A stretch of 64,000 bases of DNA from Owenweeksia hongkongensis DSM 17368 (GTDB lineage Bacteria > Bacteroidota > Bacteroidia > Flavobacteriales > Schleiferiaceae). How positions within the stretch are numbered: position 1 is the stretch's first letter; each line of letters begins with the position of its first letter. Of the stretch, positions 10,203-13,139 are shown piece by piece. The DNA lies in NCBI RefSeq assembly GCF_000236705.1, contig NC_016599.1:2046001-2110000 (forward strand), in the 5' to 3' direction. Under the pieces are notes generated by a model, which did not search any database, was not told the origin of the DNA, and saw only the letters and a list, made by a program, of their open reading frames with translations. Made by a program: the position numbers and the translations under genes.

Positions 10203-10214
10203 GGGGAAAAATAG

Positions 10215-10256
10215 TACTAAGTACTGGGTATTAAGTATTGAGTATTAGGTATTAAG
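10215..10256. repeat. Six-unit 7-bp tandem array (array A)
   Basis: Six consecutive heptamers without any slip in register: TACTAAG, TACTGGG, TATTAAG, TATTGAG, TATTAGG, TATTAAG (consensus TAYTRRG). It lies in the 104-base gap between the mevalonate kinase start and the decarboxylase stop. The same unit type occurs at 12224-12265 and 12660-12694. In the undiverged form (TACTNAG) each unit is the palindrome AGTACT plus one free base, so the array is nearly strand-symmetric. It resembles the heptanucleotide STRR repeats known from cyanobacteria in design, not in sequence. Confidence 0.85.
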
Positions 10257-10263
10257 AATTTCC

Positions 10264-11307
10264 TTATTCCTTACTCCCTACAAACTCCGGTCCTTGCCCT
10301 ACTCTATCACAAATATATCTTCCGTCTTTCAAATACTGCTTCAACTCACTATCAACAAAGGACTTAACTTTTTGTTCCGCTGTAGCGGGAAATAGCACGT
10401 GTACATTGGCGCCAGCGTCCAAAGTAAAGTAAACTGGTGTTCCCGTTTCCTTTCTATGCTCGCGAATGCGCTCAATGATATGTACGGTATTGGGCTTCAT
10501 TAGGATGAATGATGGATCAGAGGTCATCATCATGGCGTGCAGCGTCAATGCTTCACTTTCTACCAGATTTCCAAAAGCTGCCAAATCTCCACTGGCTAGA
10601 ATTTCAGTTAGCTTTTCAAGGTTTTCATGTGCTTGTAAAAAGCGCCTTTCGGCAAATGGGTGATTGTTCATCAAACCATGTCCGGCAGTGCTACTTACAC
10701 TTTTGGCGCCCACCTCAACTAGTAAAACATAGTCGCAGAAGGTTTTAAAAACTTCATGCACTTTTCCGGTAAACGGAACGGCAAACTCATCGTTGCTTTC
10801 CGGCATTCCAGCAAAACGGCCCCATTCTACCAAACCGCCATACACCGATCGGCTGGCACTTCCTGAACCTAGCCTTGCCCACTCACTTGCCTTACGGTAA
10901 AAGTCATCTTCTTTCTTTCCAGCAATTTCTTCTTTTAGCGAAAGCAGGCAAAGCGCCAAAGCACTCATACCCGAAGCACTGGAAGCAATTCCGCTGCTAT
11001 GTGGAAAGCTGTTGTGGGTTTTTATAGTAAAATGAAACTCCTTCAAAAAAGGAGCTTCATCTACAATTTGATTAAAAAACTTTTCAATCTTGGGTGCAAA
11101 GTCTGGTTTAGTCTCGCCATCCAAAATGACCTCAAAAGAAAAAGTTGCATCCGTTTTCTTGTCATCAAGAATAACTTCAGTTTCGGTGTAGCAATCATTC
11201 AGCGTAAAGCTGATGCTCGGATTGGCAGGTATCTGTTTTGGGTATTTGCCCCAATATTTTACCAAAGCAATGTTTGACGGGCTACGCCAGCTAGCAGACT
11301 TTTTCAA
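10264..11307 (-). CDS. mvaD: Diphosphomevalonate decarboxylase
   Basis: Last enzyme of the mevalonate pathway: ATP-dependent decarboxylation of mevalonate 5-diphosphate to isopentenyl diphosphate. The protein has 347 residues and shows the family signatures NIALVKYWGKYPKQIPANPS (residues 12-31) and the ATP loop SSGIASSASGMSALAL (104-119). The frame begins at TTG (11307); upstream in frame there is only a stop at about 11335-11337 and no ATG, so TTG is accepted. It follows fabD with a 27-base gap and precedes the kinase gene across a 104-base gap that holds repeat array A. Presence of this pathway fits flavobacteria, which use mevalonate instead of MEP. Confidence 0.94.
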   Translation of the reverse strand: MKKSASWRSPSNIALVKYWGKYPKQIPANPSISFTLNDCYTETEVILDDKKTDATFSFEVILDGETKPDFAPKIEKFFNQIVDEAPFLKEFHFTIKTHNSFPHSSGIASSASGMSALALCLLSLKEEIAGKKEDDFYRKASEWARLGSGSASRSVYGGLVEWGRFAGMPESNDEFAVPFTGKVHEVFKTFCDYVLLVEVGAKSVSSTAGHGLMNNHPFAERRFLQAHENLEKLTEILASGDLAAFGNLVESEALTLHAMMMTSDPSFILMKPNTVHIIERIREHRKETGTPVYFTLDAGANVHVLFPATAEQKVKSFVDSELKQYLKDGRYICDRVGQGPEFVGSKE

Positions 11308-11334: not shown

Positions 11335-12213
11335 TTAAGCTTCCGCAGAACGAGCTTCTGCTTCGCGATTAATTTTCTTCACCAAGCCTTGTAATACTTT
11401 TCCAGGGCCTACTTCGATAAACTCAGTAGCTCCATCCTTTATCATTTGCTGCACGCTCTGTGTCCATTTTACCGGAGCAGTAAGCTGAGCAATTAGGTTT
11501 TTCTTAATCTCTTCAGGGTCATTTACCGCTGTGGTAGTCACGTTTTGGTAAACCGGACAAATAGGCTGGCTAAAAGTGGTGTTGGCAATAGCTGCTGCCA
11601 ATTCTTCTTCGGCTGGCTTCATCAATGGCGAGTGAAAAGCTCCACCCACAGGAAGCATCAAGGCACGCTTGGCACCTGCTTCTTTCATTCTTTCGCAAGC
11701 CAAAGTAACTGCTCCGGTACTTCCAGAAATCACCAACTGCCCTGGGCAATTATAGTTTGCGGCCACTACTATTCCGTCAATTTCTCTACAAACTTGCTCC
11801 ACCACCTGGTCTTCAAGACCTAAAACTGCGGCCATAGTGGAAGGCTCTTTTTCGCAAGCTTTTTGCATGGCCAAAGCACGCTGAGAAACCAATCTCAATC
11901 CATCTTCAAAAGACAAAGCGCCATTAGCTACCAAAGCTGAAAACTCACCCAAAGAATGACCAGCCACCATATCAGGAGCAAAATCTCCAAGGGTTTTTGC
12001 CAAAATAACTGAGTGCAAAAACACAGCTGGCTGCGTAACTTTAGTTTGCTTCAAATCTTCGGCAGTTCCGTCAAACATAATATCGGTAATACGGAAACCC
12101 AAAATTTCATTGGCCTTCTCAAATAGCTCTTTTGCTACTTCTGAATTTTCGTAAAGGTCCTTACCCATTCCTACAAACTGGGCTCCTTGTCCAGGAAAAA
12201 TGTATGCTTTCAT
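11335..12213 (-). CDS. fabD: Malonyl-CoA:ACP transacylase FabD
   Basis: Loads malonyl groups from CoA onto acyl carrier protein for fatty-acid synthesis in the cytoplasm. The protein has 292 residues. The GQGAQ motif is at 8-12, the nucleophile S87 lies in GHSLGEFSA, and the catalytic H194 in GAFHSPLM. The C-terminal EVGPGKVLQGLVKKI is also typical. ATG start. The 65-base gap upstream of it holds a 7-bp repeat array that can fold into a hairpin, so this leader may affect fabD expression. Other fab genes are not nearby. Confidence 0.96.
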   Translation of the reverse strand: MKAYIFPGQGAQFVGMGKDLYENSEVAKELFEKANEILGFRITDIMFDGTAEDLKQTKVTQPAVFLHSVILAKTLGDFAPDMVAGHSLGEFSALVANGALSFEDGLRLVSQRALAMQKACEKEPSTMAAVLGLEDQVVEQVCREIDGIVVAANYNCPGQLVISGSTGAVTLACERMKEAGAKRALMLPVGGAFHSPLMKPAEEELAAAIANTTFSQPICPVYQNVTTTAVNDPEEIKKNLIAQLTAPVKWTQSVQQMIKDGATEFIEVGPGKVLQGLVKKINREAEARSAEA

Positions 12214-12223
12214 ATTTTTTTGG

Positions 12224-12265
12224 TACTTAGTACTGAGTACATAGTAATAAGTACTCAGTATTGAG
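12224..12265. repeat. Six-unit 7-bp tandem array with hairpin (array B)
   Basis: Six heptamers in perfect register: TACTTAG, TACTGAG, TACATAG, TAATAAG, TACTCAG, TATTGAG. Within it, 12231-12240 (TACTGAGTAC) and 12251-12260 (GTACTCAGTA) are exact inverted copies around a 10-base loop; with G-T pairs the stem extends to 12226-12265. It lies between the end of the four-helix-bundle gene and the start of fabD. Confidence 0.9.
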
Positions 12266-12278
12266 GTTTATATTCGGC

Positions 12279-12635
12279 TTATTTGTGTTTTAAATGATTT
12301 TGAAGAGCATAGTTCATGCTACACACCTCATTTATTAGTTCAAAATGCTTTTGGAGATTTTCTTGTTTTGTGAATCCTAACTCTTCTGTTAATAAAAGCT
12401 GAGTTTCCAATTCATACGCTGAGCCATTGGAAATACTTAAAAAGTGGAGAAATTCCTTCGGGCTATTTCTACCTGCACCTTGAGCTATATTTGAAGGAAT
12501 TGAAACTGCACATCTGTTTATTTGAGAAATCAATCCGAACTGCTCCGACTTTGGCAACTGGCTAGTTATGATGTAAGTTTCCTTAACCAACTCCATCGCC
12601 TTTTGCCAAACTTTCAACTCCTTAAACTTATGCAT
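12279..12635 (-). CDS. Four-helix-bundle protein (S23/IVP family)
   Basis: Small helical protein of 118 residues with all family hallmarks: LKVWQKAMELVKETY (residues 7-21), FGLISQINRCAVSIPSNIAQ (33-52), GRNSPKEFLHFLSISNGSAYELETQL (about 55-80). Relatives are encoded in 23S rRNA intervening sequences and resemble the Avd accessory protein of diversity-generating retroelements, a basic pentamer that binds nucleic acid. Here there is no rRNA, reverse transcriptase or template repeat nearby. The gene instead lies between queD and fabD with a 7-bp repeat array on each side (12660-12694 and 12224-12265). The flanking arrays suggest a small inserted unit (inference). Molecular function unknown. Confidence 0.9.
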   Translation of the reverse strand: MHKFKELKVWQKAMELVKETYIITSQLPKSEQFGLISQINRCAVSIPSNIAQGAGRNSPKEFLHFLSISNGSAYELETQLLLTEELGFTKQENLQKHFELINEVCSMNYALQNHLKHK

Positions 12636-12659
12636 ATCAAGATGATTTTTTGCACCAGA

Positions 12660-12694
12660 TACTTTGTACTAAATACTCAGTACTTTGTACTTGC
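12660..12694. repeat. Five-unit 7-bp tandem array (array C)
   Basis: Five heptamers in register: TACTTTG, TACTAAA, TACTCAG, TACTTTG, TACTTGC. The 11-base string TACTTTGTACT occurs twice, 21 bases apart. The array begins 24 bases upstream of the four-helix-bundle start codon and ends two bases from the queD stop codon. Confidence 0.87.
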
Positions 12695-12696
12695 AG

Positions 12697-13110
12697 CTAC
12701 TCCCCAAAATACTCCACCGCATTGTTTATCGTCTCATCAAGGCGAACCTTGTGCAGCTGAGCTCCGTGCTTTTCTATTTCAGGTTGTAATATTTTCCAGA
12801 TTTCCACAGCTAGCACTTCCGTGCTGCTAAATTTCCCCTTCATAAAATCGACATCATGATTGAGGTTGCTGTGATCCAGTTTATCGGTCACCTTCTTTTG
12901 AATAATGCGCTTCAGGTCCACAAGATTCATTACAAATCCGGTATCTGGATTTATCTCGCCCTTTATGGTAACGATAAGCGTATAGTTATGCCCGTGAAAA
13001 TTTTTATTGGAACATTTTCCAAAAACTTCGCGGTTCTTCTCCTCGCTCCAATTGGGATTGTACAGCTGATGCGCTGCGCTAAAGCGTTCTTTCCTTTCTA
13101 TATAGATCAT
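12697..13110 (-). CDS. queD: 6-carboxytetrahydropterin synthase (QueD/PTPS family)
   Basis: Makes 6-carboxytetrahydropterin from dihydroneopterin triphosphate, the first dedicated step towards queuosine; the related 6-pyruvoyl-tetrahydropterin synthase activity is the alternative. With the ATG at 13110 (preferred to a TTG eight codons earlier because it begins MIYIERKERFSAAHQL) it has 137 residues. Zinc ligands: H14 in SAAHQ, H39 and H41 in FHGHNY. The catalytic Cys lies in GKCSNKNF and the LDHSNLN motif follows. Other queuosine genes are not in the window. Repeat array C abuts its stop codon. A TATCTTTG box lies 22 bases upstream. Confidence 0.92.
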   Translation of the reverse strand: MIYIERKERFSAAHQLYNPNWSEEKNREVFGKCSNKNFHGHNYTLIVTIKGEINPDTGFVMNLVDLKRIIQKKVTDKLDHSNLNHDVDFMKGKFSSTEVLAVEIWKILQPEIEKHGAQLHKVRLDETINNAVEYFGE

Positions 13111-13131
13111 ACGATCATTTGAAAATTTGCG

Positions 13132-13139
13132 CAAAGATA
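13132..13139 (-). promoter_or_regulatory. Possible -7 box for queD
   Basis: Reads TATCTTTG on the minus strand, 22 bases upstream of the ATG at 13110. No TTTG element at the standard distance was found. Confidence 0.38.

Follow-up and report, generated by a model that had tools for sequence, protein, structure and literature searches.

S23-type genes lie between inverted arrays of locus-specific 7-bp repeats and probably form a small, widespread bacterial element

The genome of Owenweeksia hongkongensis DSM 17368 (4.0 Mb, one contig) contains a gene for an S23-type (23S rRNA-intervening-sequence-type) four-helix-bundle protein that stands between two arrays of 7-bp repeats built on the palindrome AGTACT. 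We studied this locus in a window of 64,000 nucleotides, the whole stretch of DNA that was analysed, and compared it with S23 loci from other genomes; coordinates without a locus or contig name are positions in the window. Here, we describe a recurrent arrangement in which an S23 open reading frame (ORF) is bracketed by inverted arms of a 7-bp, less often an 8-bp, unit, with arms that match within a locus and differ between loci. These arms have a polarity relative to the gene, the gene has a preferred direction relative to its neighbors, units are gained and lost between related genomes, and two-armed copies without a gene are present as well. In the window, the two arrays and the S23 gene likely belong together as a single unit that represents a small, widespread element, and we propose that this element is probably built as an S23 ORF in the loop between inverted arms, in the manner of REPINs and of rRNA intervening sequences (IVSs).

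We scored a locus as having inverted flanks when its upstream flank aligned to the reverse complement of its downstream flank with a local score of at least 15, leaving out L043, L053 and L095 because of their short flanks. Inverted flanks are present in 172 of 201 S23 loci, compared with 16 of 189 control flanks, and in 89 of 104 loci (control 10 of 95) when a single locus is taken from each cluster of proteins at 60% identity. Direct copies were found at 55 of the 201 loci, a count that speaks against one array split by an insertion as the source of the two arms. In the first set of 96 S23 loci, with 200-bp flanks and controls taken from stretches 700 bp away, 78 of 93 loci have inverted flanks, as opposed to 145 of 919 pairings crossed between loci and 7 of 88 far stretches; direct copies number 26 of 93. 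A set from the wider phylum gave 22 of 28, and a third set, the best 80 of at least 583 named S23 loci, gave 54 of 60 in the group assigned to Bacteroidota (far stretches 7 of 52) and 18 of 20 among loci labelled by their records as other phyla (1 of 17). Two labels in this third set deserve mention: L166, among the 60, is labelled Algicola, a Pseudomonadota genus, and L172, among the 20, carries the label Limnohabitans, has a long stretch in common with Flavobacterium and may come from a mis-binned record; both have inverted flanks. PF05635, the family to which these genes belong, was detected in 232 of 296 genomes sampled from Bacteroidota, and the S23 gene is therefore common in this phylum.

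The period of the arms is well defined. Within the first set, a 28-base window with at least 19 matches at lag 7 is found in 35 of 95 upstream and 48 of 94 downstream flanks, versus 0 of 93 and 1 of 91 in stretches 700 bp away. With a 20-base window, lag 7 stands out in 156 of 405 flanks versus 6 of 393 controls and lag 8 in 54 of 405 versus 4 of 393, and each other lag from 4 to 13 reaches at most 8 of 405 S23 flanks. In strong windows, lag 7 and lag 8 are prominent, as are their multiples (14 and 16); other lags shift the mean slightly (at most +0.96 of 20), which we put down to base composition. The number of units per array peaks at five, the floor of our detector, and we therefore draw no link between pentamers and five units.

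Both the arms and the gene are oriented. Among arrays over threshold, AG is more frequent than CT in 109 upstream arms, less frequent in 17 and tied in 10 (n=136), and downstream arms have the opposite bias, with CT ahead in 83, AG ahead in 21 and 15 ties (n=119). Neighboring genes, called as longest ORFs, both lie in sense with the S23 gene in 170 of 186 loci, both antisense in 6 and mixed in 10, a count that leaves out 6 loci with far neighbors and 12 lacking a neighbor on one side. This preference for sense may come from nothing more than a need to be expressed by read-through.

S23 protein and repeat type tend to be co-inherited. We compared 17,702 pairs of loci, drawn from 195 of the 204, that lack blastn homology in their 900-base outer flanks. 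Pairs whose proteins are less than 50% identical show background levels of repeat similarity (0.6-2.3%); the share is 3.5% at 50-60% identity and reaches 42 of 218 pairs at 60-70%, 5 of 8 at 70-85% and all 4 pairs above 85%. A reversed control does not exceed 1.8%. L160, L162, L163 and L172, which hold parts of one operon neighborhood, supply every pair above 85% as well as one of the five similar pairs at 70-85%, so the two upper bins are small and not independent. Without these four loci, the 60-70% bin stands at 40 of 201.

In the window, the S23 gene (12279-12635, minus strand) encodes 118 amino acids. Its protein belongs to PF05635 with 131.4 bits against a curated cut-off of 33.8, scores 122.5 bits against TIGR02436, and has PDB 2gsc (XCC0516, five chains; E 3.5e-22) as its closest solved relative. 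Array C, upstream of the gene (12660-12694), has five AGTACTN-type units of 7 bp and array B, downstream (12224-12265), has six. A first-pass annotation, made from the sequence alone, had placed both arrays in a strict 7-bp register, and this is borne out by Tandem Repeats Finder (TRF), which returns 7-bp arrays at 12223-12265 (6.1 copies), 12660-12692 (4.7 copies) and, as a third, 10213-10260. It is borne out as well by counts of AGTACTNAGTACTNAGTACT, the pattern with which we scanned, at up to three mismatches, for triple AGTACTN: with overlapping places counted, the window holds 8 matches against a shuffle mean of 0.01. The 10-base arms that the annotation had pointed out within array B (12231-12240 and 12251-12260) are exact reverse complements, and the two arrays (locus L002) align in inverted orientation with a score of 19, giving the ORF complementary ends. 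The S23 gene does lie, as had been claimed, between queD and fabD: its upstream neighbor is a queD-like gene with a PTPS domain (12697-13134, minus strand; PF01242), its downstream neighbor a fabD-like acyltransferase gene (11335-12213, minus strand; PF00698, Acyl_transf_1), and the three ORFs are in the same sense. Array B starts 10 bp before the fabD ORF start and array C ends 2 bp from the end of the queD ORF.

The AGTACT palindrome is a trait of the copy in the window, one version among the repeats of the class. O. hongkongensis has seven PF05635 matches, and AGTACTN flanks one alone; the other six have 7-bp or 8-bp repeats of their own, as judged by eye, which rules out AGTACT as a general mark of S23 genes. 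On the forward strand of the whole genome the pattern has 31 matches, versus 3 when it is read backward. By eye, seven of ten other AGTACTN places in O. hongkongensis, which lack an S23 gene, have two arms, another two (L253 and L261) seem to have one and L256 has no clear array, so that the AGTACTN copies include dispersed gene-less doublets such as characterize REPIN-RAYT systems. One S23-less two-armed AGTACTN unit sits in the tRNA-Ala/23S spacer of two rRNA operons (L257:939-1003, and the same place in L260). Across 60 genomes, AGTACTN triples are found in 9, including O. hongkongensis, most of them in G034, G000, G001 and G003 (backward control, 2). A second pattern, taken from an S23 flank of G020, is commonest in G020 (46 matches) and has matches in 25 of the 60 genomes, with a control of up to 9.

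The first-pass annotation had also raised the possibility of an inserted element with its own ends. For the class, inverted flanks and gaps that lack the unit argue for this; at queD-fabD itself, the empty interval sought in close relatives was not found, and three other genomes of the genus have the S23 gene and both arrays there. The arrays are recognizable across the genus, where AGTACTN scores 19-22 matches out of 24 and shuffles reach at most 16, and between the two sides of the genus the S23 gene differs with a nonsynonymous proportion (pN) of 0.18-0.20 and a saturated synonymous proportion (pS) of 0.82-0.84. In the draft genome G001 the locus comes in two forms: the first is 96% identical to O. 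hongkongensis, and the S23 gene of the second matches that of G003 exactly, so the queD-fabD comparison represents at most three lineages.

Elsewhere in the genus, gain and loss are directly visible. Four of the seven O. hongkongensis S23 loci were matched among 16 of the 21 S23 loci of the three other genomes, and DNA searches add L005, also present in G001, and L007, also present in G003. Opposite L005 and L006, G002 has empty orthologous gaps of 71 bp and 45 bp. The L006 gap is occupied in G001 by another ORF, a PF13366 match (147.6 bits) within arms of its own (L336, G001:C96, 471-1024), and in G003 by about 2.5 kb of other DNA (G003:C84, between 12555 and 15090). At the end of the upstream gene, the letters AAACTCGAAAT of the empty L006 gap (L006:1420-1500, L338) resemble both inserted arms, a possible target resemblance that we do not use as evidence, since the other cases looked at do not follow it.

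Cyanobacterial plasmids and a Flavobacterium-type operon provide further comparisons. An S23 unit is present on two plasmids of Calothrix brevissima, and in 9 of 13 other operon regions the flanking genes lie 2-3 bp apart; the same gap in the other four (L278, L281, L284, L285) holds other DNA. In this integrase-hyp1 gap, several Nostocales plasmids have a 615-base ORF (L278:1267-1881, L284:539-1153, L285:1039-1653), whose L284 copy has no Pfam match, and L281 has a 71-amino-acid ORF (1177-1392) with a weak, sub-cut-off RING-finger match. In a second gap of the same operon, Aulosira plasmid 2 (L278) carries a distant S23 gene (78 bits) between ATTCAAA arrays. The nrdB-nrdA interval of Nostoc contains an S23 unit that Calothrix NIES-4105 lacks. 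In Nostoc C052, L279 is a gene-less unit of roughly 200 bp for which a different plasmid of that strain provides an empty counterpart (L286), and ATGACC at both ends of the L279 insertion is the one candidate for a 6-bp target duplication. In the Flavobacterium-type operon, the unit occupies the same gap in L160 and L172 and a different one in L162; in L162, the gap used by the other two has a gene-less two-armed copy of a similar repeat.

The PF13366 (PDDEXK_3) ORF in the L006 gap points to a second bracketed family. We fetched 30 of 54 PF13366 matches (L355-L384), 29 of them with enough flank, and looked for empty gaps of this family at the L006 gap alone. Inverted flanks are present in 25 of 29 (far stretches 2 of 25, crossed pairings 20%), and both neighbors are in sense in 20 of 25 (4 left out). 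The largest increase is at lag 10 (mean +2.0 of 20, p 2e-8), with strong windows in 5 of 59 versus 0 of 55; lags 13 and 14 are somewhat raised, and lag 7 has strong windows in 0 of 59. The repeats, which include CACAGAG types, thus have a period of about 10 bp that is less sharp than that of S23 arms in this small sample. Arms of a different period next to a different protein suggest a rule that links protein and repeat.

Known systems share parts of this arrangement. In REPIN-RAYT systems a single gene lies between inverted short repeats, gene-less palindromic doublets are dispersed in the same genome, and the RAYT protein is a Y1 transposase. S23 units resemble them in the bracketing of a gene by inverted repeats and in their dispersed gene-less two-armed copies, but S23 is a helical bundle without known catalysis, not a Y1 (HUH) transposase, and its arms are periodic arrays. 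Avd of diversity-generating retroelements is likewise a helical bundle with weak profile similarity; scores of 24.5 bits for bAvd (cut-off 40) and 27.8 for DivGenRetAVD (cut-off 80) place the window protein outside that family.

A close published parallel in layout is the 23S rRNA IVS of Coxiella, in which tandem GACAGAT heptamers directly precede the S23 ORF and the stem is cleaved by RNase III (PMC4990558). The same paper assigns S23 proteins no known function and describes the X. campestris protein as a homopentamer (PMC4990558). S23 plus heptamers in a 23S IVS is thus already in print for one species, and our units share with it a sense S23 ORF, complementary ends, heptamers before the ORF and a sporadic distribution (PMC4990558). 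Unlike the IVS, the window unit lies in a protein-coding operon, queD-fabD; both arms consist of heptads, the repeat is locus-specific and gene-less copies are dispersed, and excision, a property of the IVS, would apply here by analogy. Intergenic 7-bp arrays have also been described by themselves, as GGGAATC in Xanthomonas and GGGGA(C/T)T in Nostoc, with 70 and 75 convergent inverted pairs in two Xanthomonas genomes (PMC4692102), and as TAACTGA in Beggiatoaceae, cyanobacteria and Bacteroidetes (PMC4679880); both papers leave their role open. "S23" and "four helix" have 0 occurrences in the main text of either paper, and PMC4692102 does not name XCC0516; the putative link between these heptamers and S23 is our own inference. 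Among the matches listed in our literature search, which left subscription papers and preprints mostly uncovered and is no proof of absence, there was no account of a general tie of S23 genes to such arms. If the tie holds, the heptad arms particular to each locus, the insertion in sense within operons and the copies without a gene give S23 a testable role, and the heptamer repeats whose function PMC4692102 leaves open would gain an origin.

We propose that an S23 protein, expressed by read-through from the host operon, recognizes its own repeat unit, perhaps as an oligomer like its solved X. campestris relative, a pentamer (PMC4990558). Its targets would be its own arms, in cis, and copies that lack the gene, in trans, and units would spread with the help of host or neighboring enzymes, as REPIN doublets do with RAYT. 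Arms in transcripts may fold and then be cut by RNase III, as in the 23S rRNA IVS. A broader version, which we offer tentatively and hold to be possible without favoring it, is that bacteria in general harbor minimal elements built around a small protein that is not a transposase. This protein would set the period of the arms around its gene (7-8 bp in the case of S23 and about 10 bp in that of PF13366), read them one unit at a time as an oligomer and spread gene-less copies; such elements would be a source of the cyanobacterial, Xanthomonas and Bacteroidota heptamers, with the rRNA IVS as a special case.

Several observations weigh against an S23-driven mobile element. Inverted flanks are missing in 29 of 201 S23 loci at score 15, two cyanobacterial units, in nrd (L226) and in L278, are antisense to their neighbors, and the arms around PF13366 genes mean that bracketing is not unique to S23. 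The S23 protein of the window has no transposase or recombinase domain (Pfam at E 0.001 returns PF05635 and a sub-cut-off bAvd match), none of the four genus genomes examined has an empty queD-fabD site, and no clear target duplication was seen at empty-site comparisons other than that of L279. At the RNA level, arms read on the sense strand contain 154 G-U and 186 A-C pairs in 121 loci; because G-U pairs do not exceed A-C pairs, selection for an RNA stem is not seen. Shuffling of unit order reveals little pairing that depends on the register (p<=0.05 in 9%, n=80); RNAduplex energies do not separate controls and carry no weight here. Finally, lag-7 or lag-8 arrays are present in 64 of 632 gaps free of S23 (1.464 Mb sampled); three control lag pairs give 24, 22 and 20.

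These S23-free arrays favor a rival reading, that the arrays are ordinary simple repeats which grew by polymerase slippage in intergenic DNA and lie near S23 by chance or through shared gaps. Heptamers abound in several bacteria, with slippage as a proposed origin (PMC4692102). Against this reading, the flanks of a locus are inverted copies of one another far more often than flanks of different loci are, inverted copies outnumber direct ones, and arms are polarized relative to the gene; we regard it as very improbable. The within-locus inverted match speaks against pure slippage, and slippage may still alter unit number. An inverted partner accompanies 15 of the 64 S23-free arrays (4 of 64 in the reversed control), versus 1 of 24, 2 of 22 and 2 of 20 for the other lag pairs.

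A resident regulatory unit, in which S23 binds the arrays in the mRNA or DNA of its own operon as operators to control the neighbors and mobility is rare or past, would fit the retention of gene and arrays at queD-fabD in four genus members despite saturated synonymous sites, the position of array B just before the fabD start, and the fact that 6 of 7 O. hongkongensis S23 loci are common to at least one genus member. However, neighbors of S23 loci mostly differ, because 17,702 pairs show no flank homology; G002 has empty orthologous gaps opposite two loci; and S23-free arrays are about equally frequent in convergent (8 of 78), divergent (12 of 142) and co-directional (44 of 412) gaps. We judge this reading unlikely. 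Somewhat better placed, yet still on the doubtful side, is descent from a 23S rRNA IVS that colonized mRNA operons and owes its fitness to RNase III excision, which would render the insertion harmless. The layout of the Coxiella IVS (PMC4990558), the sense orientation of 170 of 186 loci and the two-armed AGTACTN copies in two rRNA spacers favor such an origin; the lack of a G-U excess in the arms argues against it, as does the observation that 0 of 204 S23 loci match the stretch of O. hongkongensis that holds 23S.

The third TRF array in the window, array A (10213-10260), belongs to an AGTACTN unit without S23 that lies between two genes (10213-10277). Beside it, 10262-10277 overlaps the end of the next ORF and may be a short second arm, albeit a weak one, because RNAfold pairs the first arm mostly with itself. 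Among S23 units elsewhere, L149, L153 and L155, from records labelled KSB1, Nitrospirae and Desulfobacteraceae, share the 8-bp unit AGGCACAA, possibly by transfer across phyla. On a number of Nostocales plasmids, a short stretch without an annotated gene recurs (L274:2807-2860).
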